DNA from: an uncultured Spirochaetaceae bacterium
GTDB lineage: Bacteria > Spirochaetota > Spirochaetia > Sphaerochaetales > Sphaerochaetaceae
Reading direction: 5' to 3'
Assembly (NCBI GenBank): GCA_944390015.1
Contig: CALXOL010000011.1
Location: forward strand, 1 to 64,000
Length of the DNA stretch: 64,000 nucleotides
Below are positions 864 through 35,133 of this stretch, piece by piece (position 1 is the stretch's first letter; every line of letters starts with the position of its first letter). The position numbers and the translations under genes were made by a program. Below the pieces are notes generated by a model, which saw only the letters and a list, made by a program, of their open reading frames with translations, had not been told where the DNA came from and ran no database searches.

Positions 864-1985
864 TCAAGCGTAGTCTGGATCGATGTTAAACTGGAATGAG
901 TAGGTTGGGAATTCCTTTTCCAAAGCTTCCGTTGCTTTTTTCCTGAAATCTGAGATGTCTTTCAGATTAAAGTCTACAACCACATCGAAATGAACTCTTG
1001 AGTCGTTGAAATGTACGTGGAATGCGTGCATGCCTATTACCGAAGGGCTTACGTTTTTAAGCACTTTCAGAACCTCTTTCTTCATAAGACGTACTGTCGG
1101 GTTTATATCGTTTACCGCATACATGCCGAACGTGAAATATATGCCAAGCTCATCCATGATTTCAATCTGGGCTTCAGTCATGGCATCGAATATCTCCTCT
1201 CCTTTTGCATCCGAGGGAACTTCCACATTACAGGTTCCAACCGCCCTCGTAGGACCGTAGCTATGAATCTGGATATCATATCCACCATGAAGCGGGGGAT
1301 GACGGTTTATAATCGCCCTGATTTCATTCACCGTTGATTTCTCCGGCCTCTCTCCGACAATTGAAGAGACCGTGATGAGAATGTTCTTTATCCCAGAATA
1401 GAGGATAAAGAGCGATACTACAAGACCCGCCCATCCATCGAGATTAACTGGGGCTATATAGGAGATGATTACGGCAAGAACAGTAACAGATGAACTTAAA
1501 GCATCTATGAGGGAGTCTGTTGCGCTTGCCTTTAGTGCGTCGGAGTCCGTCTTAACAGCAGCCTTGCTGTTCATCCTCCATAAGAAGAGTTTCATGAATA
1601 TCGTGATGATGATTATGAGCACCATCATCTGGCTCATATCCATCATTGTAGGTTCGATTATTTTTGAAATCGAAGAGGAGAGAAGTTCAAATCCTGCAAA
1701 AAGTATGATGAAGGAGACGATAAGCGCAGATAGGTACTCAATTCTTCCAAATCCGAGAGGATGTGAGTGAGTTGGCCTTCTCTTTGCTAAGATGTTCCCC
1801 AGCATAGTCACAAAAGATGAGAGGATATCCCCTGCGTTGTTGATACCATCGGAGACGATTGCAACCGAGCCGCTTATGAGACCGATTATGATTTTCACAG
1901 CAGCCATAATTGAGTTAAGCACAATTGATAGAAGTGATGTCTCTCTTATTATCTTATCCCTGTCGGGATTCTTACCTTTAAGCAT
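864..1985 (-). CDS. Cation diffusion facilitator family transporter
   Basis: A 373-residue CDF antiporter that would export a divalent metal (Zn, Mn or Fe) in exchange for protons across the inner membrane. About six hydrophobic segments are followed by a cytoplasmic C-terminal domain with histidines (HAFHVHFN). The first metal-site helix reads SDGINNAGD near residues 45-53, the second DALKASATD, and HPLGFGRIEYLSA lies between. The Asn-Asn-x-x-Asp form differs from the His/Asp set of Zn exporters such as YiiP, so Mn or Fe is possible. An ATG 39 bases upstream lacks a ribosome site; the chosen ATG has AGAGGA four bases before it. Confidence 0.85.
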   Translation of the reverse strand: MLKGKNPDRDKIIRETSLLSIVLNSIMAAVKIIIGLISGSVAIVSDGINNAGDILSSFVTMLGNILAKRRPTHSHPLGFGRIEYLSALIVSFIILFAGFELLSSSISKIIEPTMMDMSQMMVLIIIITIFMKLFLWRMNSKAAVKTDSDALKASATDSLIDALSSSVTVLAVIISYIAPVNLDGWAGLVVSLFILYSGIKNILITVSSIVGERPEKSTVNEIRAIINRHPPLHGGYDIQIHSYGPTRAVGTCNVEVPSDAKGEEIFDAMTEAQIEIMDELGIYFTFGMYAVNDINPTVRLMKKEVLKVLKNVSPSVIGMHAFHVHFNDSRVHFDVVVDFNLKDISDFRKKATEALEKEFPTYSFQFNIDPDYA

Positions 1986-2032
1986 TCTGTCCTCTTTTAA
2001 ATTTAAGAAATGATAGTTTTCCATTCATTTAT

Positions 2033-2061
2033 TTGCAATAGAGATTGCTAAATTCTATAAT
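2033..2061 (+). promoter_or_regulatory. Leaderless-type promoter of yqeC
   Basis: TTGCAA (2033-2038), a 17-base spacer and TATAAT (2056-2061) form a near-consensus sigma-70 promoter. Only six bases separate the -10 box from the ATG at 2068, so transcription should begin at or next to the start codon. There is no Shine-Dalgarno sequence. Confidence 0.7.
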
Positions 2062-2067
2062 TTATTC

Positions 2068-2775
2068 ATGCAGCTTACTAAAGAGTTATATTCAGCGGTG
2101 GTGAAAAACGGAGGCGCGGTCGTTGCAATAACGGGCGCAGGAGGGAAGACCACGCTTTTAAAGAAATTCTCAACATATCTGAAAAAACAGGGGCTGAGCG
2201 TTCTTATTACCACGACAACCAAGATTCAAAATCCTCTTTTCTACGATTATGAAGCGGATTACGTGTTCAAGGATGAGCTTGGCGTTCTTACCCATGATGT
2301 TAAGAAAGGGGAGAAAGTTTTCTATGCTGAATCATCTAAATATGACATAAAGAAGGCGGTCTCTCCCAGACTGGAGCTCTTATCGGTTTTAAAAGATAGA
2401 TACGATGTCATTCTCTATGAGGCTGATGGCTCAAGGGGGCTGCCTCTTAAGATACACTCAGAGCGTGATCCCGTCATAGTGGAAGGAACTACGGCAGTGA
2501 TTGCAATAATGGGACTCGGTGCGATTGGGAATAAGGCATATTCCGTCGTATTCGGAGATGACAGTGAAAAAAGTGTGGATTCAAGATATTTAGAATCATA
2601 CTTAAAGAATCCTGATGGACTTTTGAAAGGGATGAGCACTGGTACGGAGAACATTATAGTCGTCAACCAGGCTGACAGCTATGAGGATAAGATTGAGGAA
2701 GTGAGGAAAGTCAAATTCCCATATCCTGTATTTATTGCTTCGGAGGAGATGGATGAGATCTACCTATCTATTTGA
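2068..2775 (+). CDS. yqeC: Selenium cofactor/hydroxylase accessory protein YqeC
   Basis: A 235-residue P-loop protein of the YqeC family, associated with maturation of selenium-dependent molybdenum hydroxylases. GAGGKTT at residues 23-29 is the Walker A motif and YEADGSRGLPLK a conserved family block; VVNQAD near the C-terminus fits a nucleotide-binding fold. The gene overlaps the next one by 23 bases, and that gene encodes further factors of the same system, which supports the call. No hydroxylase structural gene lies in the window, so the target enzyme must be elsewhere. The ATG is directly preceded by a promoter, suggesting a leaderless message. Confidence 0.85.
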   Translation: MQLTKELYSAVVKNGGAVVAITGAGGKTTLLKKFSTYLKKQGLSVLITTTTKIQNPLFYDYEADYVFKDELGVLTHDVKKGEKVFYAESSKYDIKKAVSPRLELLSVLKDRYDVILYEADGSRGLPLKIHSERDPVIVEGTTAVIAIMGLGAIGNKAYSVVFGDDSEKSVDSRYLESYLKNPDGLLKGMSTGTENIIVVNQADSYEDKIEEVRKVKFPYPVFIASEEMDEIYLSI

Positions 2776-4234
2776 TGGCGCAGAGCAAAAAGAGAGAGAA
2801 GGGCTTGGAATAGCGATAGTGACACTGCTTAAAAAGAGTGGAATTGCCTCAAGAGACGTAAGCCGCATGATAGTCTATTCAGATGGTTCAACCTCTGGGA
2901 CGATTGGAGGCGGAGATGTTGAACGTACCGTTGTGAAAGATGCCATGCTCGCAATTAAGGATGGAAAAAGTGGAAGAAAAGAGTATCGGAACAGGCATAA
3001 AGGTGTGCTTGATATCATGATTGATGTCGTATCTCAGGAGAAGAAGGCGATAATCTTTGGAAGCGGGCATGTATCAAGAGCATTGAAGGAAGTGCTATCG
3101 TTCCTTCACTTTCATGTTCTCATTGTCGATTCCTTCCTTTCTGGAAGAGGAGATGATTTTTCATCTTCCGATGCTGATTTGAATACTGCAATCATCTTCA
3201 CGGATCATGAGAGCAGGAACATGTACTACGATGAGGCGCTAAAGAGCGATGCCTTCTATATCGGAGCACTATCATCAAGGGTGAAGCCCCCTATGGAAGG
3301 AGAGAGAATATTTTCCCCTTCAGGCCTTGATATCGGAGCAGAGAGTCCAGAGGAGGTTGCCGTAAGCATCGCCTCTGAGGTGCTGGCATCTCTGAATAAA
3401 AGGAGAGGAATCAGCATGAAGGAGGAGAGAAGACGGTTTATAATCGTGCGTGGAGCAGGTGACCTTGCCACAGCCGTGATAATAAGGCTAAAAAGAGCAG
3501 GATATAATGTGCTTGCCCTTGAGACTGAGAGGCCGAGTGTTATCAGGCGTACTGTGAGCCTTGCTGAGGCAGTATACGATAAAGAAGCTGTAGTCGAGGG
3601 GGAGAAAGCGGTATTAATCGATTCTATTCACGAGGTCTTTCAATCTTTTGACCGTGGTCTGATTCCCATACTCATAGATGAAAATGGATCTACGATTGAG
3701 GCATTAAAGCCTACTGTTGTCGTTGATGCGATAATAGCAAAAAGAAATCTTGGAACAAAGATTGATGATGCACCTCTTACTATTGCGCTTGGTCCTGGCT
3801 TTACTGCAGGATGCGATGTCGATGTTGTAATAGAGACTAAGAGGGGGCACTCCCTTGCTCGAATAATAAGAGAAGGCTCTGCTATAGAGAATACAGGAGT
3901 TCCTGGCATTATTGAAGGTTACGGCAAAGAACGTGTCATCCATAGTCCTGCAGACGGGGTGATCAGGAATATGAGAAAAATAGGTGATATCGTAAAAAAA
4001 GATGATATCATCGCATATGTCGGACCTACACCTGTCATGGCCTCAATCGATGGCATGCTCCGTGGTCTTATCAGGACCGGGTATGAGTGTCATAAGGGTC
4101 TTAAGATCGCAGACATCGATCCAAGAGGGGATAAGGCCGAGTACACTACGATGAGTGATAAGGCACGATCTATTTCGGGATCTGTGCTGGAAGTCGTTGA
4201 TTCGTTCTTTTCTTGCCCCAATAAGTGGAAATAA
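2753..4234 (+). CDS. XdhC-YqeB fusion, molybdenum hydroxylase maturation protein
   Basis: A 493-residue protein that joins two maturation factors usually encoded separately. The first ~225 residues are XdhC/CoxI-like: a glycine-rich GTIGGGD segment, then a Rossmann-type IIFGSGHVS and IGALSSR. XdhC proteins bind molybdenum cofactor and help its sulfuration and insertion. From about residue 230 the protein is YqeB-like (EF2563 family): VRGAGDLAT, LGPGFTAGCD and a biotinyl-like end (SPADGVIRN, GDIVKKDD). The ATG at 2753 has GGAGGAG correctly spaced; an in-frame ATG at 2735 does not. Together with yqeC it forms a compact operon for a selenium-dependent hydroxylase not seen here. Confidence 0.85.
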   Translation: MRSTYLFDGAEQKEREGLGIAIVTLLKKSGIASRDVSRMIVYSDGSTSGTIGGGDVERTVVKDAMLAIKDGKSGRKEYRNRHKGVLDIMIDVVSQEKKAIIFGSGHVSRALKEVLSFLHFHVLIVDSFLSGRGDDFSSSDADLNTAIIFTDHESRNMYYDEALKSDAFYIGALSSRVKPPMEGERIFSPSGLDIGAESPEEVAVSIASEVLASLNKRRGISMKEERRRFIIVRGAGDLATAVIIRLKRAGYNVLALETERPSVIRRTVSLAEAVYDKEAVVEGEKAVLIDSIHEVFQSFDRGLIPILIDENGSTIEALKPTVVVDAIIAKRNLGTKIDDAPLTIALGPGFTAGCDVDVVIETKRGHSLARIIREGSAIENTGVPGIIEGYGKERVIHSPADGVIRNMRKIGDIVKKDDIIAYVGPTPVMASIDGMLRGLIRTGYECHKGLKIADIDPRGDKAEYTTMSDKARSISGSVLEVVDSFFSCPNKWK

Positions 4235-4252
4235 GGTATCATCATAAGGTAT

Positions 4253-5539
4253 ATGGAAAAAGAAGTTTTTGAAAACAATATTGCAGCTTTGAAGAAAGCA
4301 CAGCTTCACCTCTCCGCTTCCTCAGAAAGTGTGCGGAATGGGGCGCTTCGCTTGATTTATGAGGAGCTGGAGAGAGATAAGGATTTTATTTTTGCTGAGA
4401 ACAAAAAGGATTTGGAAGAGGCAAAAGGAAAGATAGGAGAAGCCGTACTCGGGCGGTTAAAATTCGATGAGAAGAAACTTAAGAGCGTTAGAGATGGAAT
4501 TCTTGATCTCATAGCACTTAGTGATCCAATTGGAAGAATCGAGGAGAAAAGGGAGCTTGATTTCGGTTTTATTCTGACGAAAAAGAGCGTTCCAATCGGC
4601 GTGATCGGTATGATATTCGAAGCCCGTCCAGATGCTCTTGTACAGATAGCCGCACTATGCATAAAGAGCGGAAACGCAGTGATTTTAAAGGGTGGAAAGG
4701 AGGCTGTGAACTCAAACAGGGCGCTGTTCAAAGTCATATCGGCAGCACTTGAAAAGACATCCCTGACATCGGCATTCCTGATGCTCATTGAAAGCCATGA
4801 GGATGTCGCATCGATTCTAAAAATGGATAAGTACATAGATCTCATCATCCCAAGGGGCTCTAATGCCTTTGTGCGTTATGTCATGGACAACACCAGGATT
4901 CCTGTTCTTGGTCATGCGGATGGAATCTGCTCGATATATGTTGATGAATATGCCAATATGGATATAGCGGTTCCTATCGTATTAGACAGTAAGATCCAGT
5001 ATCCAGCAGCATGTAATGCTGTTGAAATGGTTCTAGTGAATGAGAAGATAAAGGAGTGCTTCCTTCCTAAAATCAAGAAGGTTTTCAACGATAATGGTGT
5101 CATCATCCACGGTGATGAAGAGGTAAGGAACATCATTGAATGTGAATCGCTCGGAGATGACGACCTCTTTAAGGAATTTCTTTCTCTCGAGGTATCCATA
5201 AAGTGTGTGAAAGACACGGCAGAGGCGATAGACCTCATAAACAGAAATGGCTCTCATCACACCGATGCTATCATCACGGAAAATGCAGAGAACAAGAATC
5301 TCTTCTTCTCCCTTGTTGATAGTGCGGATGTCTTTGCAAACTGCTCAACCAGGTTTTCCGATGGCTATCGTTTCGGTCTTGGCGCTGAAGTCGGCATCTC
5401 CACAAGCAAGATACATGCCCGTGGTCCTGTGGGGCTTAACGGTCTTATGAGCTATAAATGGCTTTTAGAAGGGCATGGGGAGATTGTCTCTGATTACGCT
5501 AATGGGAAGAAGGTTTTTCATCATAAGGATCTGGTATGA
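4253..5539 (+). CDS. proA: Gamma-glutamyl phosphate reductase
   Basis: A 428-residue, full-length ProA, which reduces glutamyl-5-phosphate with NADPH to the semialdehyde, the second step of proline synthesis. The aldehyde-dehydrogenase fold is clear: GMIFEARPDA in the N-terminal half, IIPRGSNAFVRYV, and the catalytic cysteine in PAACNAVE (Cys254). The C-terminal RFGLGAEVGIST and KIHARGPVGL blocks are typical of ProA. Its stop overlaps the proB start by four bases (ATGA), so the two are translationally coupled. It begins only 18 bases after the xdhC-yqeB gene and may be cotranscribed with it. Confidence 0.97.
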   Translation: MEKEVFENNIAALKKAQLHLSASSESVRNGALRLIYEELERDKDFIFAENKKDLEEAKGKIGEAVLGRLKFDEKKLKSVRDGILDLIALSDPIGRIEEKRELDFGFILTKKSVPIGVIGMIFEARPDALVQIAALCIKSGNAVILKGGKEAVNSNRALFKVISAALEKTSLTSAFLMLIESHEDVASILKMDKYIDLIIPRGSNAFVRYVMDNTRIPVLGHADGICSIYVDEYANMDIAVPIVLDSKIQYPAACNAVEMVLVNEKIKECFLPKIKKVFNDNGVIIHGDEEVRNIIECESLGDDDLFKEFLSLEVSIKCVKDTAEAIDLINRNGSHHTDAIITENAENKNLFFSLVDSADVFANCSTRFSDGYRFGLGAEVGISTSKIHARGPVGLNGLMSYKWLLEGHGEIVSDYANGKKVFHHKDLV

Positions 5540-6657
5540 GGGATTTTTCAAAGATTAAGAGAATCGTCGTAAAGGTCGGAACCAATCTCCTTACGGATGA
5601 GAGCGGCATAAACGAGGAAAGGATAAAAGAAATATGTTCACAGCTTGCTGAGCTTAAGAACATGGGCTACCAGGTCATACTCGTTTCTTCCGGTGCGATC
5701 GGAATGGGTGCAAAGGTCCTTAAGCATACGAATCCTGTAGTGCATATCCCTCTTAGACAGGCTTTTGCCGCTATCGGTAATCCTATACTGATGACTGCTT
5801 ATCAGATGGAGCTTGAAAAGTACAATATCATAGCCGCTCAGGTACTTATTACCAAGAGCGTTCTGAATAACAGGAAAAGCTATGTGAATCTGAGAAGCTC
5901 GGTCTCCACGCTTCTTGCCCTTGGAGCCGTGCCGATTTTCAATGAGAACGATGTCGTATCGACAGCTGAGATTGGGAATGTCTTTGGGGATAATGACAGG
6001 ATGAGTGCCATGGTCGCATCAAAGATAGAAGCCGATCTTTTGATTCTTTTAACGGATATTGACGGCATATATACGGCTAACCCTAAGAAGGATAAGGATG
6101 CGACTCTTATTAAGACCATCGATAAGATAACACCTGAGATCATGTCTTTTGCAAAAGGAAAGGGGAGCGCTTTCTCTACGGGGGGAATGAAGACCAAACT
6201 CTATGCCGCGGAGATCGCCCAGGATGGAGGATGTGCGACGATAATCGCATCGGGCTATGAGAAGGACGTGCTCACCCGTATCGTCAAAGGGGAGGATATC
6301 GGAACCCTGATACTCCCGTCAAAGCGTCTTAGTGCCAGGGAGCGCTGGATAATGGATGCCTCAGTAAGTGGTACGATTGTTGTCGATGATGGTGCTAAGA
6401 AGGCTCTTTTTGAAAATAAGTCGTTGCTTCCTTCCGGTATTGTTTTAATAAAAGGTAATTTCAATGAAAAGGACGTTGTGCTTGTAACGGACAAGGAAGG
6501 AAAGGGTTTACTTAAAGCAGTTACAAATTTCAATTCTGCAGATCTAAGGGCCTTGGCAGGGCATAAGAGCTCGGAGATTGATGAGATACTTGGAAAGGGG
6601 AGAAGGGATGTTGTCTTCCGCCCGGAAGATACGAGTCCTGTAGAACACAATGTCTGA
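5536..6657 (+). CDS. proB: Glutamate 5-kinase
   Basis: A 373-residue ProB, which phosphorylates glutamate in the first and usually feedback-inhibited step of proline synthesis. The amino-acid kinase domain shows VVKVGTNLL at the N-terminus, VSSGAIGMG, NENDVVST and LLTDIDGIYTANP, followed by FSTGGMKTKL. A C-terminal PUA domain of about 100 residues is present (SGTIVVDDGAKKAL onward). Gene order is proA then proB, the reverse of Escherichia coli. The last 8 bases overlap the next gene. Confidence 0.97.
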   Translation: MRDFSKIKRIVVKVGTNLLTDESGINEERIKEICSQLAELKNMGYQVILVSSGAIGMGAKVLKHTNPVVHIPLRQAFAAIGNPILMTAYQMELEKYNIIAAQVLITKSVLNNRKSYVNLRSSVSTLLALGAVPIFNENDVVSTAEIGNVFGDNDRMSAMVASKIEADLLILLTDIDGIYTANPKKDKDATLIKTIDKITPEIMSFAKGKGSAFSTGGMKTKLYAAEIAQDGGCATIIASGYEKDVLTRIVKGEDIGTLILPSKRLSARERWIMDASVSGTIVVDDGAKKALFENKSLLPSGIVLIKGNFNEKDVVLVTDKEGKGLLKAVTNFNSADLRALAGHKSSEIDEILGKGRRDVVFRPEDTSPVEHNV

Positions 6658-7564
6658 TTACAAAGTCATTCACAGAAAACAGGATCTGGAGATGAAGATA
6701 TCCAGCTTATACCATCAGGCTCAGCTTGCAATCGGCCTGATTGATTGCTCAAGCAAGGATGATCTGATCTCCTCTCTTGACTGGTTTACTGCGAACATGA
6801 ATTTCTGCCTCCATCTCATTACGACACAGGAGAGGGAGGAAGAGATGAACCTCTCTGACAGGTATCCAGATGTAACTTTCATCCTTTTCAAAAACACATC
6901 AACAACCGGAGAGTATATCAACGCACTCTCTGATGAGTGCTATACGACTTATTTCCTTGTTTTGAGAACAGATACCATTCTTATTGAATATCAGGGGCAG
7001 GAATTGATGAGGATTATGAGCGATAAGAACCGCCCTGCAATCATAGCACCGGTGATGCTCTCCAGTCAGCTCGAGGTTATTCCAACCCTCCGTGCCCCTC
7101 ACCTCAGCGGGAAGGATTTTGATCCGTTGAGCTTCACTCCAACAGTCAGCGAGGTCAGAGAGGAGGAGAATCTGTATCCGCTGATGGGACTAGGGCTGTA
7201 TGACAGGGCACTCTTCCAGAGGCTCAGGGTGTATGACAGCCAGATAACCGGGGAGTTCTTCCAGATGGCGGATTTCGGCATCAGATGCTACCTTTTAGGA
7301 TACAGTATCATTACGACAAGGAATATCGTGATACAGTTTCCACAGAAGCTTAGTATCGTTGAGGATAGAAGCCCATGTGAGGGGATGAACCGATTCTATA
7401 CCAAAGCGATGAGCATCAGGCGCATAGCGGGGAAGAACATGGTTGAGAAATGGAAGCCTTATGTGGATAAATCACTGCTTAATGAGGAGATAAAGAAGAA
7501 GCAGATCATATTGCAGAAGACAGACTTCTTTACTCTCATGGATAACTGGAAAGAGAAAGAGTGA
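6650..7564 (+). CDS. Glycosyltransferase-like protein, function unassigned
   Basis: A 304-residue soluble protein without signal peptide or membrane segments. The layout suggests a GT-A (family 2) fold: an N-terminal alpha/beta region, a TYFLVLRTDTILI segment where a DxD-like site would fall, and ADFGIRCYLLGYSII, which resembles the late (E/D)D-x2-R-x3-GY block of family 2 glycosyltransferases. The match is weak and a canonical DxD motif is not evident, so this may be a degenerate or non-catalytic relative. It overlaps proB by eight bases and is presumably translated from the same message. Confidence 0.45.
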   Translation: MSDYKVIHRKQDLEMKISSLYHQAQLAIGLIDCSSKDDLISSLDWFTANMNFCLHLITTQEREEEMNLSDRYPDVTFILFKNTSTTGEYINALSDECYTTYFLVLRTDTILIEYQGQELMRIMSDKNRPAIIAPVMLSSQLEVIPTLRAPHLSGKDFDPLSFTPTVSEVREEENLYPLMGLGLYDRALFQRLRVYDSQITGEFFQMADFGIRCYLLGYSIITTRNIVIQFPQKLSIVEDRSPCEGMNRFYTKAMSIRRIAGKNMVEKWKPYVDKSLLNEEIKKKQIILQKTDFFTLMDNWKEKE

Positions 7565-27575: not shown

Positions 27576-27962
27576 TCTCTTCAGAAAGGGTGGAAAAGCA
27601 TTACCTGAAAATTGAATATAATGAAAAAGTTGTCTGTTTTTCGAAATTCAGATGTCTGAAATAAGTATAAATCTGATGAAAGATCAGAGCTTTCTTTTGA
27701 TTTATATGAAAGAAAATATTATTGATGATTCATAAGAATAGTGTATTTTCAATAATAATTATTTCTTATTTTGAAAAAAATTAAGACGGTTTTATTATAA
27801 TTTACTCGTTTTAGTTCAAAAAAACTTACATGAAATATTGTTTCAAAAATATTAATAAATAGGGGATAAATCAATTTTTTCTCTTGTGAAAAATATAGAC
27901 ATGTTTTAAGATTCTACCATACAACTTTTGTTACTTAATCAGTAAACAAAAAGGAGAAAAAG
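27576..27962 (+). promoter_or_regulatory. AT-rich regulatory region of TRAP operon A
   Basis: No gene was found in these 387 very AT-rich bases. A likely promoter is TTGAAA (27771-27776) with TATAAT (27796-27801), spacing 19. Downstream of the presumed start lies an interrupted palindrome at 27830-27846, TGAAA-TATTG-TTTCA, which matches 13 of 17 positions of a perfect palindrome at the same relative place before operon B. GGAG precedes the dctP ATG. Confidence 0.5.
27830..27846. promoter_or_regulatory. Putative operator of TRAP operon A
   Basis: An inverted repeat of the form TTGAAA-n5-TTTCAA, imperfect at the left end, 116 bases before the dctP ATG and about 22 bases downstream of the predicted transcription start. 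A better copy lies at 31304-31320. Confidence 0.45.
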
Positions 27963-28970
27963 ATGAAAAAACTAATTGTTATGTTGCTTGCAATCATGAT
28001 AGTGGCTGTTCCTGTATTTGCAGGCGGAGCAAGTGAGGGCGGCAGCTCAGAGACTATCAACCTCGTACTTTCCGAAGTACACGCAGAGGGCTATCCAACG
28101 ACTCTCGCAGACTACGAGTTCGCACGTCTTGTCAATGAGAGAAGTAACGGAAGGATCAACATCCAGGTCTACTCCGGTGGAACACTCTACGGGGAGGAGA
28201 CTGGATCAATCGAAGCTCTTCAGATCGGAGACCTCGCATTCGCACGTGTATCCGCATCCCCAGTTGCATCATACGTACCTGCACTGAACGTTATTCAGCT
28301 TCCATACCTTTATAGGGATGCTGACCACATGTGGGCGGTACTCAACGGAGAGATCGGACAGCAGATGCTCGCAGACATTCAGACATCAGGATCCGGACTC
28401 GTAGGACTTGCATACTATGACGCAGGAGCAAGAAACTTCTACACTGTTAAGCCAGTAAGAAGCCTTGAGGACATGAAGGGACTCAAGATCAGGCTTCAGA
28501 ACAATGCGATGATGGTAGAGATGGCTGAGCTTCTCGGAGCAAACGGAGTAACGGGAATCGGACCGAACGACGTATACTCGGCAATCCAGCAGGGAACGAT
28601 CGACGGAGCTGAGAACAACTGGCCTACATACGAGTCGATGGGAGACTACGAGGCTGCTCCATACTTCACGCTCGACGCACATACAAGGGTACCAGAGATT
28701 CTTCTCGCATCAGAGGCGATCATGAACACGCTGAGCGAAGAGGACCAGCAGCTGATCAAGGAATGTGCAAAAGAGACACAGGAGTACGAGATCGAGCAGT
28801 GGAACCTCAGAGAGAAGTCGGCAGAGGAGAAGGTAACGGCAGCAGGAGTAGAGGTAATCGAGCTCTCAGCAGAGGAGCTTGCCAAGTTCCAGGAGAGGAT
28901 GGCACCTCTGTATACCAAGTACGGTGCTGGTTACGAGGATATCATCGCTTCTATCCAGAACGATTATTGA
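27963..28970 (+). CDS. dctP: TRAP transporter substrate-binding protein, copy A
   Basis: A 335-residue DctP-type periplasmic receptor that delivers a carboxylate or sugar-acid ligand to the DctQM permease. The signal peptide ends in VPVFAGGASEG, with no lipobox cysteine. LKIRLQNN and GTIDGAENNW are the DctP signature segments; the arginine in KIRLQN normally pairs with the ligand carboxylate. The first 19 codons differ slightly from copy B at 31407; from 28020 on the DNA looks identical. Strong AGGAG ribosome site. Codon choice is biased to GCA, ATC and CTC compared with neighbours, suggesting high expression. Confidence 0.95.
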   Translation: MKKLIVMLLAIMIVAVPVFAGGASEGGSSETINLVLSEVHAEGYPTTLADYEFARLVNERSNGRINIQVYSGGTLYGEETGSIEALQIGDLAFARVSASPVASYVPALNVIQLPYLYRDADHMWAVLNGEIGQQMLADIQTSGSGLVGLAYYDAGARNFYTVKPVRSLEDMKGLKIRLQNNAMMVEMAELLGANGVTGIGPNDVYSAIQQGTIDGAENNWPTYESMGDYEAAPYFTLDAHTRVPEILLASEAIMNTLSEEDQQLIKECAKETQEYEIEQWNLREKSAEEKVTAAGVEVIELSAEELAKFQERMAPLYTKYGAGYEDIIASIQNDY

Positions 28971-28992
28971 TTTAGCTTAGTTTCAAACTTTT

Positions 28993-29013
28993 GGGGGAGA
29001 GGCGTTCTCCCCC
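28993..29013 (+). promoter_or_regulatory. Intercistronic hairpin dctP-dctQ, copy A
   Basis: GGGGGAGA and TCTCCCCC form an 8-bp GC-rich stem with loop GGCGT between dctP and dctQ. No T-run follows, so it more likely protects the 3' end of dctP mRNA or causes partial attenuation than full termination. Confidence 0.55.
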
Positions 29014-29037
29014 ATATTAGATAAAAGGGGGAAAACT

Positions 29038-29688
29038 TTGTCAGGTTTTTCATTTTCGAATTGGCTGGAGAAAAACAAGATAGTTTTTCATCGCGAGAAC
29101 TGTAAAAGCGCATGGGGATGGATTAAAGAGATCTTATTGCTTGTTAACCATATCTGCCATAGGATCCTGCTCTCTATTGCACAGCTTTCGCTAATCATCA
29201 TGCTCGTGACGGTATTCATGAACGTAATTCTACGTTTCTGCTTCAATTCCGGTATCAAATGGGCAGAAGAGGTACCAGGACTGCTGGTAACCTTATTCAC
29301 ATTCCTTGCATGTGCGATCGGATGCCGTGACCATATGCATATATCAGTGGGAATTATTTACAACCGTTTTAAAGAGGGCGGCAAAGTAAGGAAAGCACTC
29401 GATGTTTTATCGGATATCGCAGTACTCTTCTGTGGAATCGCACTTTTTTATTACGGTCTTACATATATAATCAAGCTGCGACCGGGCTCGATGCCGATGA
29501 CAGGCTGGCCTACATGGCTTAGGTACATCCCGGCTCCGATCGGAGGTTTCTTAATGACGTTCGACCAGCTCTTATTCCTCTTCGGCATAGTCGATAGGAA
29601 CGATCTTCTCTATTCCGAGGCCGAGGTGGACTATGCGAAGCTTGTGAAGGAGAACGAGGCGGAAGCCGCGAAGGGAGGTGCTAAATGA
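29038..29688 (+). CDS. dctQ: TRAP transporter small permease, copy A
   Basis: A 216-residue DctQ subunit with four hydrophobic helices and the family segment RFCFNSGIKWAEEVPGLLVTLFTF. It pairs with DctM in a sodium- or proton-coupled importer. The start is TTG at 29038, with GGGGG seven bases before it. The C-terminus is acidic (YSEAEVDYAKLVKENEAEAAK). Its stop overlaps the dctM start as ATGA. The protein is identical to copy B. Confidence 0.93.
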   Translation: MSGFSFSNWLEKNKIVFHRENCKSAWGWIKEILLLVNHICHRILLSIAQLSLIIMLVTVFMNVILRFCFNSGIKWAEEVPGLLVTLFTFLACAIGCRDHMHISVGIIYNRFKEGGKVRKALDVLSDIAVLFCGIALFYYGLTYIIKLRPGSMPMTGWPTWLRYIPAPIGGFLMTFDQLLFLFGIVDRNDLLYSEAEVDYAKLVKENEAEAAKGGAK

Positions 29689-31097
29689 TTACTAACATAC
29701 CGGCAGCAATAGTACTTCTGGCAGGATTCATCGGCCTCATGCTTCTGAGGGTGCCAGTAACATTCTCGATGCTGATTGCGGCATTCGCATCGGCGCTGTT
29801 CGTTCCTGGGACGAACCCGACAACGATGATCCGCATGATGCTCGACGGAGTAAACAACTTCACGATGCTCGCGATTCCGTTCTTCATCGTAATGGGCGAG
29901 ATCATGGCGATTGGAGAGATATCGGACAAGATAGTAGATCTTGCGAACCTGATAGTCGGACGCTTCCGCGGAGGACTGGCGTACGTCAACTGTATCGACT
30001 CGATGTTCTTCGGAGGAATCTCAGGCTCTGCGGTAGCTGACGTATCATCTCTTGGATCCGTAGTAATCCCGATGATGGAGAAGCAGGGTTATGACAGGGA
30101 GTTCGCGGTAGGACTTACAGTAACTACGGCATGTCAGGGAGTTCTGATTCCACCATCGCACAACATGGTCATCTACGCACTCGCAGCTGGAGGCGGAGTC
30201 TCGATCGGAGATCTGTTCATAGCGGGATTCGCACCTGGAATTGCACTCGGACTTGCATTCATGGTTCTCTGTTTCTTCCTTGGAAGGAAGTACAACTTCC
30301 CGAAAGGCAGCAAGCTGTTCGTAGGAGACAGTGCAAGGTGGCTCAAGTTCAAGAAGCACAGTGGGGACAAGGCGTTTGCGGCCCATAAGGTTGAAACCAG
30401 CTGGATTGAGCTACAGACACCGTTATTTGATCTTGAGATGGGAAAGTGCATCCAGGTAATCTGCAATGCAATTCTTCCTATGATGACGCTCGTAATCATC
30501 ATGGTCGGTACTGGTGTAGGTATCTTCACGGCGACAGAAAGTTCTGCTGTAGCATGTTTCTATACTTTCATTCTTACCTACTTTATCTTCCGTAAGGCAA
30601 AAATTAAGGACTTTGGAAACGTTCTAAAGAACTCGCTCAAGACACTTGCTGTCGTACTTACGCTTATTGCTACGGCAAAGGCGTTCGCATACATGATGAC
30701 GCTCTTAAGGATTCCTACGGCCGTTACGAACGGACTTATCGGAATCTCGGACAATCCGATCATCATCCTGCTGATCATCAACCTTCTCCTGATGGTACTC
30801 GGATGCTTCATGGATATGGCACCGCTGATTATCATCATGACACCGATTCTGCTTCCTGTAGTTGAGTCGATTGGAATGAGCAGGATACACTTTGGAATCA
30901 TGCTCATCTTCAACCTTGCAATCGGACTTTGCACACCACCGGTTGGAAGTGCGCTCTTCGTAGGATGTGCAGTTGGTAAGACGAGCCTTGAGAGTACGGC
31001 AAAGAAGATGCTTCCTCTTTTTGCATGTATGATCTTTGTCCTTTTGGTTGTTACCTATCTTCCGTTCTATGTGCATATGCCATTGTTCGGATATTGA
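29685..31097 (+). CDS. dctM: TRAP transporter large permease, copy A
   Basis: A 470-residue DctM subunit, the ion-coupled translocator, with about 12 helices. Landmarks are FFGGISGSAVADVSSLG, LIPPSHNMVIYA, TATESSAVACFYT and DMAPLIIIMTPILLPV. A cytoplasmic insert of ~45 residues around KGSKLFVGDSARWLKF makes it longer than the usual ~430. The last ~200 codons differ from copy B at scattered synonymous sites and about a dozen residues (for example VGI/MGV, KIK/KVR), whereas the earlier part looks identical. Confidence 0.95.
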   Translation: MITNIPAAIVLLAGFIGLMLLRVPVTFSMLIAAFASALFVPGTNPTTMIRMMLDGVNNFTMLAIPFFIVMGEIMAIGEISDKIVDLANLIVGRFRGGLAYVNCIDSMFFGGISGSAVADVSSLGSVVIPMMEKQGYDREFAVGLTVTTACQGVLIPPSHNMVIYALAAGGGVSIGDLFIAGFAPGIALGLAFMVLCFFLGRKYNFPKGSKLFVGDSARWLKFKKHSGDKAFAAHKVETSWIELQTPLFDLEMGKCIQVICNAILPMMTLVIIMVGTGVGIFTATESSAVACFYTFILTYFIFRKAKIKDFGNVLKNSLKTLAVVLTLIATAKAFAYMMTLLRIPTAVTNGLIGISDNPIIILLIINLLLMVLGCFMDMAPLIIIMTPILLPVVESIGMSRIHFGIMLIFNLAIGLCTPPVGSALFVGCAVGKTSLESTAKKMLPLFACMIFVLLVVTYLPFYVHMPLFGY

Positions 31098-31110
31098 TTG
31101 ATAATATTTT

Positions 31111-31140
31111 TAAGGCTGGGGGAGACCTCAGCCTTTTATA
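31111..31140 (+). terminator. Terminator of TRAP operon A
   Basis: AAGGCTGGGG and CCTCAGCCTT form a 10-bp stem with one wobble and a GAGA loop, followed by TT-ATA, shortly after the dctM stop. It keeps the two tandem operons as separate units. Confidence 0.75.
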
Positions 31141-31406
31141 CAACTTTAAAATTAATTTAATTTATCTTGTCTAAAATACTTAGATACAAATTTTCTCCTA
31201 AAATAAAAACTTGTCTATAAGAAAATATTCTAATTTTAGTTTGTCTCTAATTGCAAAATTCTAATATATAAAGATTTGTTGTATTTCTCATGTTTTTATT
31301 CATTTGAAACCGTGTTTCAATAGTGAAAAATTAAATATTGCATGCACTTTTTTTCTATTTTAATCTTTTCAGAAGATAATATTTTACTCTGAAAAAGGAG
31401 AGAAAA
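31141..31406 (+). promoter_or_regulatory. AT-rich regulatory region of TRAP operon B
   Basis: No gene was found here. TTGTCT (31241-31246), 18 bases and TATATA (31265-31270) form a plausible promoter. About 27 bases past the predicted start lies the perfect palindrome at 31304-31320. The region is unlike that of operon A except for this palindrome and the ribosome site, so the two operons could answer to different upstream signals. Confidence 0.5.
31304..31320. promoter_or_regulatory. Putative operator of TRAP operon B
   Basis: TTGAAAC-CGT-GTTTCAA is a perfect inverted repeat with a 3-base centre, 86 bases before the dctP ATG. Its form resembles sites of LacI/GalR-type repressors, and a degenerate version stands at the equivalent place in operon A. 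Confidence 0.55.
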
Positions 31407-32414
31407 ATGAGAAAACTAATTGTTATGTTGCTTGCAATCATGATGGTAGCTGTTCCTGTATTCGCAGGCGGAGCAAGTGAGGGCGGCAGCTCAGAGACTA
31501 TCAACCTCGTACTTTCCGAAGTACACGCAGAGGGCTATCCAACGACTCTCGCAGACTACGAGTTCGCACGTCTTGTCAATGAGAGAAGTAACGGAAGGAT
31601 CAACATCCAGGTCTACTCCGGTGGAACACTCTACGGGGAGGAGACTGGATCAATCGAAGCTCTTCAGATCGGAGACCTCGCATTCGCACGTGTATCCGCA
31701 TCCCCAGTTGCATCATACGTACCTGCACTGAACGTTATTCAGCTTCCATACCTTTATAGGGATGCTGACCACATGTGGGCGGTACTCAACGGAGAGATCG
31801 GACAGCAGATGCTCGCAGACATTCAGACATCAGGATCCGGACTCGTAGGACTTGCATACTATGACGCAGGAGCAAGAAACTTCTACACTGTTAAGCCAGT
31901 AAGAAGCCTTGAGGACATGAAGGGACTCAAGATCAGGCTTCAGAACAATGCGATGATGGTAGAGATGGCTGAGCTTCTCGGAGCAAACGGAGTAACGGGA
32001 ATCGGACCGAACGACGTATACTCGGCAATCCAGCAGGGAACGATCGACGGAGCTGAGAACAACTGGCCTACATACGAGTCGATGGGAGACTACGAGGCTG
32101 CTCCATACTTCACGCTCGACGCACATACAAGGGTACCAGAGATTCTTCTCGCATCAGAGGCGATCATGAACACGCTGAGCGAAGAGGACCAGCAGCTGAT
32201 CAAGGAATGTGCAAAAGAGACACAGGAGTACGAGATCGAGCAGTGGAACCTCAGAGAGAAGTCGGCAGAGGAGAAGGTAACGGCAGCAGGAGTAGAGGTA
32301 ATCGAGCTCTCAGCAGAGGAGCTTGCCAAGTTCCAGGAGAGGATGGCACCTCTGTATACCAAGTACGGTGCTGGTTACGAGGATATCATCGCTTCTATCC
32401 AGAACGATTATTGA
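31407..32414 (+). CDS. dctP: TRAP transporter substrate-binding protein, copy B
   Basis: A 335-residue receptor identical to copy A from residue 20 on; the signal peptide differs by Arg for Lys at position 2 and Met for Ile at position 13. The same DctP signature (KIRLQNN, GTIDGAENNW) and the same cysteine-free FAGGASEG junction are present, so ligand specificity must match copy A. AGGAG precedes the ATG. Keeping a second, separately promoted copy may raise dosage or widen expression conditions. Confidence 0.95.
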   Translation: MRKLIVMLLAIMMVAVPVFAGGASEGGSSETINLVLSEVHAEGYPTTLADYEFARLVNERSNGRINIQVYSGGTLYGEETGSIEALQIGDLAFARVSASPVASYVPALNVIQLPYLYRDADHMWAVLNGEIGQQMLADIQTSGSGLVGLAYYDAGARNFYTVKPVRSLEDMKGLKIRLQNNAMMVEMAELLGANGVTGIGPNDVYSAIQQGTIDGAENNWPTYESMGDYEAAPYFTLDAHTRVPEILLASEAIMNTLSEEDQQLIKECAKETQEYEIEQWNLREKSAEEKVTAAGVEVIELSAEELAKFQERMAPLYTKYGAGYEDIIASIQNDY

Positions 32415-32436
32415 TTTAGCTTAGTTTCAAACTTTT

Positions 32437-32457
32437 GGGGGAGAGGCGTTCTCCCCC
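32437..32457 (+). promoter_or_regulatory. Intercistronic hairpin dctP-dctQ, copy B
   Basis: The same GGGGGAGA/TCTCCCCC stem as in operon A, in the identical spacer and again without a T-run. Confidence 0.55.
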
Positions 32458-32481
32458 ATATTAGATAAAAGGGGGAAAACT

Positions 32482-33132
32482 TTGTCAGGTTTTTCATTTT
32501 CGAATTGGCTGGAGAAAAACAAGATAGTTTTTCATCGCGAGAACTGTAAAAGCGCATGGGGATGGATTAAAGAGATCTTATTGCTTGTTAACCATATCTG
32601 CCATAGGATCCTGCTCTCTATTGCACAGCTTTCGCTAATCATCATGCTCGTGACGGTATTCATGAACGTAATTCTACGTTTCTGCTTCAATTCCGGTATC
32701 AAATGGGCAGAAGAGGTACCAGGACTGCTGGTAACCTTATTCACATTCCTTGCATGTGCGATCGGATGCCGTGACCATATGCATATATCAGTGGGAATTA
32801 TTTACAACCGTTTTAAAGAGGGCGGCAAAGTAAGGAAAGCACTCGATGTTTTATCGGATATCGCAGTACTCTTCTGTGGAATCGCACTTTTTTATTACGG
32901 TCTTACATATATAATCAAGCTGCGACCGGGCTCGATGCCGATGACAGGCTGGCCTACATGGCTTAGGTACATCCCGGCTCCGATCGGAGGTTTCTTAATG
33001 ACGTTCGACCAGCTCTTATTCCTCTTCGGCATAGTCGATAGGAACGATCTTCTCTATTCCGAGGCCGAGGTGGACTATGCGAAGCTTGTGAAGGAGAACG
33101 AGGCGGAAGCCGCGAAGGGAGGTGCTAAATGA
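32482..33132 (+). CDS. dctQ: TRAP transporter small permease, copy B
   Basis: A 216-residue DctQ identical in sequence to copy A, including the TTG start with GGGGG upstream and the ATGA overlap with dctM. Being identical at DNA level, either DctQ can assemble with either DctM. Confidence 0.93.
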   Translation: MSGFSFSNWLEKNKIVFHRENCKSAWGWIKEILLLVNHICHRILLSIAQLSLIIMLVTVFMNVILRFCFNSGIKWAEEVPGLLVTLFTFLACAIGCRDHMHISVGIIYNRFKEGGKVRKALDVLSDIAVLFCGIALFYYGLTYIIKLRPGSMPMTGWPTWLRYIPAPIGGFLMTFDQLLFLFGIVDRNDLLYSEAEVDYAKLVKENEAEAAKGGAK

Positions 33133-34541
33133 TTACTAACATACCGGCAGCAATAGTACTTCTGGCAGGATTCATCGGCCTCATGCTTCTGAGGGTGCCA
33201 GTAACATTCTCGATGCTGATTGCGGCATTCGCATCGGCGCTGTTCGTTCCTGGGACGAACCCGACAACGATGATCCGCATGATGCTCGACGGAGTAAACA
33301 ACTTCACGATGCTCGCGATTCCGTTCTTCATCGTAATGGGCGAGATCATGGCGATTGGAGAGATATCGGACAAGATAGTAGATCTTGCGAACCTGATAGT
33401 CGGACGCTTCCGCGGAGGACTGGCGTACGTCAACTGTATCGACTCGATGTTCTTCGGAGGAATCTCAGGCTCTGCGGTAGCTGACGTATCATCTCTTGGA
33501 TCCGTAGTAATCCCGATGATGGAGAAGCAGGGTTATGACAGGGAGTTCGCGGTAGGACTTACAGTAACTACGGCATGTCAGGGAGTTCTGATTCCACCAT
33601 CGCACAACATGGTCATCTACGCACTCGCAGCTGGAGGCGGAGTCTCGATCGGAGATCTGTTCATAGCGGGATTCGCACCTGGAATTGCACTCGGACTTGC
33701 ATTCATGGTTCTCTGTTTCTTCCTTGGAAGGAAGTACAACTTCCCGAAAGGCAGCAAGCTGTTCGTAGGAGACAGTGCAAGGTGGCTCAAGTTCAAGAAG
33801 CACAGTGGGGACAAGGCGTTTGCGGCCCATAAGGTTGAAACCAGCTGGATTGAGCTACAGACACCGTTATTTGATCTTGAGATGGGAAAGTGCATCCAGG
33901 TAATCTGCAATGCAATCCTTCCTATGATGACGCTCGTGATCATCATGGTCGGTACTGGAATGGGTGTCTTCACGGCGACGGAGAGCTCTGCAGTTGCATG
34001 TTTCTATACGTTTATCCTGACCTATTTCATATTTAGAAAAGCTAAGGTCAGAGACTTTGGAAATGTTCTTAAGAACTCACTTAAGACGCTTGCTGTCGTA
34101 CTTACGCTCATTGCTACGGCAAAGGCGTTCGCATACATGATGACGCTCTTAAGGATTCCTACAGCCGTTACGAACGGACTTATCGGAATCTCGGACAATC
34201 CGATTATCATCCTGCTGATCATCAACATTCTTTTGATGCTCCTCGGATGTTTCATGGATATGGCACCGCTGATCATTATCATGACACCGATTCTGCTTCC
34301 TGTGGTTGAGTCGATTGGAATGAGCAGGATACACTTTGGAATCATGCTTATCTTCAACCTTGCAATCGGACTTTGTACACCACCGGTTGGAAGTGCGCTC
34401 TTCGTAGGATGTGCAGTTGGTAAGACGAGCCTTGAGAGTACGTCTAAAAAGATGTTCCCTCTCTTTGCATGCATGCTCGTAGTTCTGCTCGTGGTTACAT
34501 ACCTTCCATTCTACGTGCATATACCATTATTCGGATATTAA
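33129..34541 (+). CDS. dctM: TRAP transporter large permease, copy B
   Basis: A 470-residue DctM, identical to copy A through about residue 263 and then diverging at many synonymous sites. Replacements include GMGVF for GVGIF, KVRD for KIKD, INILLMLLG for INLLLMVLG and a different C-terminal helix (MFPLFACMLVV). Changes are conservative and confined to hydrophobic segments, so both permeases should be functional. A UUCG-capped terminator follows. Confidence 0.95.
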   Translation: MITNIPAAIVLLAGFIGLMLLRVPVTFSMLIAAFASALFVPGTNPTTMIRMMLDGVNNFTMLAIPFFIVMGEIMAIGEISDKIVDLANLIVGRFRGGLAYVNCIDSMFFGGISGSAVADVSSLGSVVIPMMEKQGYDREFAVGLTVTTACQGVLIPPSHNMVIYALAAGGGVSIGDLFIAGFAPGIALGLAFMVLCFFLGRKYNFPKGSKLFVGDSARWLKFKKHSGDKAFAAHKVETSWIELQTPLFDLEMGKCIQVICNAILPMMTLVIIMVGTGMGVFTATESSAVACFYTFILTYFIFRKAKVRDFGNVLKNSLKTLAVVLTLIATAKAFAYMMTLLRIPTAVTNGLIGISDNPIIILLIINILLMLLGCFMDMAPLIIIMTPILLPVVESIGMSRIHFGIMLIFNLAIGLCTPPVGSALFVGCAVGKTSLESTSKKMFPLFACMLVVLLVVTYLPFYVHIPLFGY

Positions 34542-34545
34542 CGGT

Positions 34546-35133
34546 TTAAGAGGGCTGCTTCGGCAGCCTTCTTTTCAGCAGTAACACTCCAAAATTCTCA
34601 AGAGTGAATTCCTTAGTGCCGTCGAATTCAATCTCTATAGTGATTAAATCACCTGATTTAGCTTCGAAATACATTGGTTTCATATAGCTTTCAAAACCTT
34701 CAAATCTTCTTGATACCATCCCATTTATATTTAGTGTAATAGCGCTTATGCTTTCAAAATCTGGATCGGTCGAGAAGAAAAATGCGGCGATTCTGTCTAC
34801 TCCTTTTTCAATTACGTAATAGCCAAGACTTTTCGTCTCTATTTGCTTATTCCCGCTCTCCTTCTCGTATACTAAATCGTTAAAAGGATGAAAGAGAATA
34901 TCATAGTCTTTCTCAGCGTTCTTTAAGAAAGCTGTTCTTTCTTTCATGGATAAGGAATAAATTAGCGATTTCTCTTCTTCGCTTAGCGCCTTCAGTCCTT
35001 CTTTTCTCTTCCTTTCCCTATCAAGCCTTTCAATCTCAAGTCGTTCACTTTCTTTTTTCTCACCTCTTTTTCTTAAAACGACAAACAAAATTATCAATAA
35101 GACAAGCAGAAGAATAAGGATAGACTCTCTCAT
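34546..35133 (-). CDS. Membrane-anchored hypothetical protein
   Basis: A 195-residue protein with one N-terminal transmembrane helix (residues 5-20), then a highly charged Lys/Arg/Glu coiled-coil segment (21-65) and a C-terminal domain of predicted strands (SAITLNINGMVSRRF, ITIEIEFDGTKEF). It is not a lipoprotein: no signal cysteine. No family was recognised. Its last codons overlap the UUCG terminator of the TRAP operon. The start has only a weak ribosome site. Confidence 0.6.
   Translation of the reverse strand: MRESILILLLVLLIILFVVLRKRGEKKESERLEIERLDRERKRKEGLKALSEEEKSLIYSLSMKERTAFLKNAEKDYDILFHPFNDLVYEKESGNKQIETKSLGYYVIEKGVDRIAAFFFSTDPDFESISAITLNINGMVSRRFEGFESYMKPMYFEAKSGDLITIEIEFDGTKEFTLENFGVLLLKRRLPKQPS
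34550..34577. terminator. UUCG-loop terminator of TRAP operon B
   Basis: GGCTGC-TTCG-GCAGCC is a stable UUCG tetraloop hairpin, extendable by weaker pairs, followed by TTCTTTT. It lies just past the dctM stop and inside the last codons of the convergent hypothetical gene. Confidence 0.85.

Follow-up and report, generated by a model that had tools for sequence, protein, structure and literature searches.

Tandem TRAP transporter operons of probable hexuronate type in an uncultured spirochaete and their likely concerted evolution

When two adjacent operons of one genome are printed letter for letter alike over most of their length and diverge sharply towards their edges, a question about their history arises: is this a recent duplication, or an old pair whose copies have overwritten each other? 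Here this question is considered for a stretch of 64,000 nucleotides (hereinafter, the window), positions 1 to 64,000 of contig CALXOL010000011.1 from an uncultured Spirochaetaceae bacterium; the complete contig has 88,761 bp and is one of the 34 contigs that make up a draft genome of 2.19 Mb. The organism belongs to the Candidatus Ornithospirochaeta group of gut spirochaetes. The window carries, head to tail on the forward strand, two full operons for a tripartite ATP-independent periplasmic (TRAP) transporter, each with the gene order dctP-dctQ-dctM, at 27963-31097 and 31407-34541. As argued below, the pair quite probably represents a hexuronate TRAP operon that was duplicated in tandem long ago and whose copies have evolved in concert via recombination with each other.

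Identical core and mosaic tail

The dctP genes (27963-28970 and 31407-32414) encode a substrate-binding protein of the DctP family, dctQ (29038-29688 and 32482-33132) the small permease, and dctM (29685-31097 and 33129-34541) the large permease. Base-by-base comparison bears out the earlier note on this DNA, which had placed the second dctPQM set at an offset of 3444 bases: in this register, the copies differ at 73 of 3135 bp, and none of the differences falls within 28020-30472, the counterpart of 31464-33916, so that the 2453-bp core is, as that note had it, free of differences in the sequence as printed. Chance does not account for the clean core: in 20,000 shuffles of the 73 differences, the longest clean run never exceeded 507 bp. 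Outside the core, the signal-peptide codons contain four differences with two amino-acid changes (K2R and I13M), dctM 3' of position 30472 contains 69 differences, 55 of them at third positions, with 11 amino-acid changes, and between the region upstream of copy 1 and the spacer that precedes copy 2, alignment is confined to the ribosome-binding site and the gene start. The signal-peptide codons, the last ~200 dctM codons and the promoters have, indeed, diverged, as claimed previously; the dctM tail, however, is not evenly diverged but is a mosaic of three patches. Patch A (30473-30650 in copy 1) is 82% identical to copy 2, with 54% identity at third positions (32/59); patch B (30651-31000) is 96% identical, with 91% at third positions (105/116); and patch C (31001-31097) is 78% identical, with 50% at third positions (16/32). 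The third-position identity of patch B differs from that of A with p=1e-7 and from that of C with p=2e-6 (Fisher). Even divergence along the units, the pattern that the earlier note had named as speaking against its reading, was not observed.

The divergence of these patches can be set against that between related species. Close dctM homologues are present in 29 of the 48 genomes of the genus, with two full copies only in the genome of the window, and the closest relative, G063 (contig CALXKU010000001.1), has a single intact operon on a 166-kb contig. Between the copies in the window and the four closest relatives (G063, G002, G010 and G067), third positions of all segments are ~38-63% identical; those of the core and patch B are 58-62% identical to G063, and those of the core alone are 58-59% identical between the window and G063 or G067. 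Strong codon constraint can thus be dismissed as the cause of the identity of the core and patch B, because third positions vary freely between species. In patches A and C taken together, the copy-copy identity differs from the copy 2-G063 identity by +0.03 (95% confidence interval -0.08 to 0.13) and from the copy 1-G063 identity by -0.07 (-0.20 to 0.06); in these patches, the two copies are as diverged as orthologues of different species. Hence, either the two copies date back to about the species split or one of the tails was imported. Some parts of the paralogues (core, B), then, resemble each other more than they resemble orthologues, and others (A, C) are diverged to the orthologue level, a pattern which, together with the tail mosaic, rules out a simple recent duplication as the sole explanation. 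To this extent, the previous reading of the pair as homogenised, and not simply duplicated of late, is supported: tail patches and promoters are at species-level divergence, and the core and patch B are not. Similarly, the upstream region of copy 1 (27576-27962) aligns with the upstream regions of G002, G010 and G067, and is closer to them than to that of copy 2, and in a tree of the A+C tail copy 2 groups, with weak support (71%), with those copies of the relatives that lie beside the same downstream gene.

The mechanism that we envisage is homologous recombination between neighbouring copies, either gene conversion or repeated unequal exchange; such recombination would presumably depend on RecA. 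Most of dctP-dctQ-dctM would have been overwritten at least twice, with an older event leaving patch B at 96% identity and a more recent event covering the core, whereas the promoters, the signal-peptide codons and patches A and C would have stayed outside the tracts and kept diverging.

Assembly, relatives and competing explanations

When identity between repeats is taken as a record of evolution, one has to ask how the repeats were assembled. In this genome, 14 pairs of contig ends share an overlap of exactly 77 bp, the left end of the contig that holds the window being among them. Such overlaps, along with a search for a 16S gene that yielded none, identify a short-read de Bruijn assembly with a word length k of 77; a smallest contig of 2,694 bp and a lack of the 16S gene are usual for short-read metagenome bins. 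In a de Bruijn graph, the arrangement flank-repeat-middle-repeat-flank is a single loop, and the repeat is one edge that is printed twice. Since the 2453-bp repeat far exceeds k, neither the lack of differences in the core nor the presence of exactly two copies is established; three or more units would yield the same graph, so that the copy number of two is an assumption of our reading. As judged from k, the assembler was apparently of the SPAdes type; metaSPAdes collapses bulges, i.e. isolated differences at least 77 bp away from their neighbours (PMC8021871), and the biggest clean gap retained outside the core, 66 bp, agrees with such collapse. In a simulation with assumed bulge-length limits and assembler settings, the chance of wholly hidden divergence was 19% at 1% divergence, 5% at 1.5% and 1.5% at 2%, suggesting that the core identity is probably at least 98.5%. 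Accordingly, zero differences with sharp edges, from which the earlier note had argued for conversion, are not reliable evidence here, because a k=77 graph merges near-identical stretches and collapses isolated differences. The case for conversion nevertheless withstands this problem because the mosaic lies in a dctM tail that escaped merging by the assembler; being unique, the sequences of the heads, of the spacer and of all three tail patches are unaffected by the structure of the graph. The "recent" or "ongoing" timing, the exact number of copies and the choice between conversion and unequal exchange, in contrast, are not established. More generally, a long exact repeat anywhere in this genome has to be read as a single assembled stretch that is printed two or more times; zero-difference paralogues with sharp edges in short-read de Bruijn genomes can be partly made by the assembler, and the length of contig-end overlaps is a simple test that exposes such assembler-written identity.

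The same considerations may apply to the sister species. In G002, a contig stops at dctP residue 228 and the sequence resumes at dctM residue 143; in G010, the respective points are dctP 49 and dctM 175, and in G067, approximately dctP 29 and dctP 280, the middle part being missing in each case. In all three, the left piece has an upstream region of the copy 1 type and the right piece adjoins a gene homologous to the convergent one that lies at 34546 in the window; no second operon copy is readable in these three assemblies. A broken operon is found in 3 of the 4 closest relatives versus 0 of 24 others (p=0.001, provided that the latter are not so broken; dctM is, however, split in G006, and G066 is truncated at a contig end). 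Indirectly, these breaks point to collapsed repeats left unbinned, as a homogenised repeat would look; if that is right, tract edges differ between species. It is possible, although on balance we doubt it, that concerted evolution of the tandem hexuronate operon is recurrent in at least four species of the Ornithospirochaeta group, with species-specific tract edges, an identical transporter, and promoters that diverge under one KdgR-like regulator. Such repeats in sister genomes may show up only as gaps, with the loci undercounted in metagenome-assembled genomes.

Several observations weigh against concerted evolution. A sister relationship of the two copies is not rejected with the A+C tree (approximately unbiased test, p 0.55 vs 0.45), third positions are near saturation, and up to ~1.5% divergence may hide under the k=77 assembly; breaks are also seen in G006 and, apparently, in G066, broken contigs being in any case indirect evidence. 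Furthermore, patches A and C could be foreign alleles recombined in from an unsampled species. The corresponding scenario, a recent simple duplication followed by replacement of patches A and C and of one promoter by diverged alleles of another species, is compatible with the above test and with the interspecies divergence of A and C, which is what an imported allele would show. However, it requires that alleles were imported on several separate occasions, each time at the border of one and the same unit, patch B with its 91% third-position identity demands a further age class, and no sampled species comes near either tail, the closest match being that of G063 to copy 1 (84% and 83% in patches A and C, respectively). 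We regard this scenario as improbable.

Somewhat better, although still unlikely, are the prospects of unequal crossing-over, in which the array would cycle through one, two, three or more units, homogenising the interior and not the outer edges. This explanation overlaps with concerted evolution as we propose it, which leaves conversion and unequal exchange undecided between them. Tandem direct repeats favour unequal exchange, the single operon of G063 could be a product of contraction, and the k=77 graph, as we infer from its construction, is blind to the difference between two units and more; the diverged patch A between the core and patch B is, however, more simply understood as the trace of separate non-crossover tracts. 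Least credible of all, and very improbable in our judgement, is an artefact in which each cell has one operon and variants of different strains or species were joined into a tandem during assembly. The repeat does exceed both k and the usual insert sizes, so that the path through it was resolved by graph traversal of short reads, and assemblers of the metaSPAdes type do collapse bulges. Still, the unique segment 30473-31463 (tail 1, spacer and head 2) connects the end of one unit with the beginning of another, so that some cell must have had two or more units side by side, the heads and all three tail patches are each present in two versions, and three close relatives, assembled separately, are broken at the same operon. 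Concerted evolution of an old tandem thus remains the explanation that we favour.

Predicted substrate and regulation

The products of copy 1 match the Pfam models of DctP (8e-77), DctQ (2.5e-27) and DctM (2.4e-112), and the three proteins are encoded together, as is characteristic of a TRAP transporter (DctPQM). In copy 2, DctQ and mature DctP are predicted to be identical to those of copy 1 and DctM is 98% identical; altogether, two residues of the DctP signal peptide and 11 mostly conservative substitutions in DctM distinguish the copies. DctQ (29038-29688) is only 76% identical to its counterpart in G063, versus 90% for DctP and 94% for DctM. Arginines R157 and R177 of DctP are invariant among 19 aligned relatives, in line with carboxylate binding, and share a 20-residue spacing with the ligand arginines R150/R170 of STM3169, an equivalence based on spacing only. 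The best PDB sequence matches of DctP are 4xfe, 4x8r, 4n8y, 4ovr and 4mhf; the ligands of matches other than 4MHF and 4N91 we take to be hexuronates. The structural model of DctP (predicted local distance difference test score 88.7) has close fold matches, with Z of 36-39, to TRAP binding proteins of the hexuronate type. Both 4MHF and 4N91 have been named as hexuronate-type TRAP binding proteins (PMC7660916). By homology, then, the transporter is probably of the hexuronate (glucuronate/galacturonate) type.

A motif search with the palindrome TGRAAY-N3-RTTYCA yielded 7 sites in the 2.19 Mb of the genome versus 0 for the reversed control pattern. Only two sites are in the window, one before each dctP: TGAAATATTGTTTCA at 27831-27845 and, within the promoter region of copy 2 (31138-31406), TGAAACCGTGTTTCA at 31305-31319. 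Another palindrome of the same type, TGAAACCATGTTCCA, is located directly 5' of a uxaB-uxaA-uxaC-regulator cluster (locus L262, G000:C1:90500-99500, positions 1365-6698), which encodes a tagaturonate reductase, a protein of the altronate/galactarate-dehydratase family, a glucuronate isomerase and an IclR regulator. This regulator is best matched by the KdgR model with 231.7 bits, below the NCBIfam equivalog cut-off of 275; it may be a relative of KdgR, and is denoted here KdgR-like and not KdgR. The palindrome fits the published group 2 consensus of the IclR family, TGRAACAN1-2TGTTYCA, and is similar to the KdgR motif listed with it (PMC8222616). Both signs of a KdgR (IclR) regulon, an IclR-type promoter palindrome and a KdgR-like regulator encoded elsewhere in the genome, are present, and the uxa cluster together with the two dctP promoters constitutes a predicted hexuronate regulon in this uncultured spirochaete. 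The operator is not general in the genus: among 25 loci with dctP, exact or one-mismatch upstream sites were found only in L076 (G063), L081 and L083. An exact operator-like palindrome also precedes a pyruvate:ferredoxin oxidoreductase-like gene (L263, G000:C1:194928), and one more lies close to genes for a sigma factor and for a pyruvate phosphate dikinase-like protein (L264, G000:C12:49451), all these names coming from reading of the translations.

It appears likely from these predictions that a hexuronate transporter is controlled by the KdgR-like regulator, and that its two units, transcribed from different promoters, provide dosage or graded expression. The pair would most likely serve dosage and regulation, and not a second substrate, because a separate promoter with a KdgR-type operator precedes each unit and because mature DctP and DctQ are predicted to be identical.

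The upstream regions contain further elements found by motif search. TTGTCT/TGTCT elements lie 5' of both operons, at 27630 (TTGTCT), 27653 and 27897 (AGACATGTTTTA) before copy 1 and, as three TTGTCT elements, at 31167, 31211 and 31241 in the promoter region of copy 2. In G002, G010 and G067, a TTGTCT...TGTCT pair with a separation of ~22 bp is conserved, as is a TAGACATGTTTTA element close to the start of the gene; these elements are possibly the site of a second regulator. Downstream of copy 1, a terminator-like hairpin, AAGGCTGGGG-GAGA-CCTCAGCCTT followed by TT, can be read at 31112-31137 on the forward strand; the terminator scan does not list it, as the hairpin fails the T-run rule of the scan.

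Comparison with known systems

Concerted evolution of paralogous genes and operons is already known in bacteria and archaea, and the TRAP operon would be an added case, in which a carbon-uptake operon of gut spirochaetes is subject to this process and its promoters escape homogenisation, a way to hold dosage while splitting regulation. Long-lasting concerted evolution of prokaryotic paralogues has been described for tuf, amoCAB, haoAB, cycAB, psbA and mtrA, with the amo and hao operons converting as whole units (PMC6053082). As in those cases, the paralogues within a genome, in the parts concerned, are more alike than the orthologues, supposedly via gene conversion. Unlike them, the units described here are direct neighbours, and recurrence across species is hinted at only by broken assemblies; the 26 genes listed there include no TRAP transporter. 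Should the recurrent reading be true, a nutrient-uptake operon would join the tuf- and amo-type cases.

In the rRNA operons of E. coli, gene conversion has been measured directly (PMC8022953). The likeness consists in non-reciprocal recombination, proposed in our case, between near-identical multi-gene units on one chromosome; the E. coli operons are dispersed, whereas the units in the window are protein-coding and tandem, and conversion is deduced here from sequence alone. With regard to the substrate, hexuronate-binding TRAP transporters include STM3169 of Salmonella, Bpro_3107 and Apre_1383 (PMC7660916). The operons in the window share with this set a DctP-family protein with two arginines 20 residues apart and the presence of hexuronate catabolic genes in the genome, and differ from it in that the operon is not beside the uxa genes and is present twice. 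Finally, the operator TGAAAC-N3-GTTTCA and an IclR regulator with KdgR as the best match liken the predicted regulon to that of KdgR, an IclR family regulon with group 2 palindromes (PMC8222616), from which it differs in the sub-cut-off score of its regulator.

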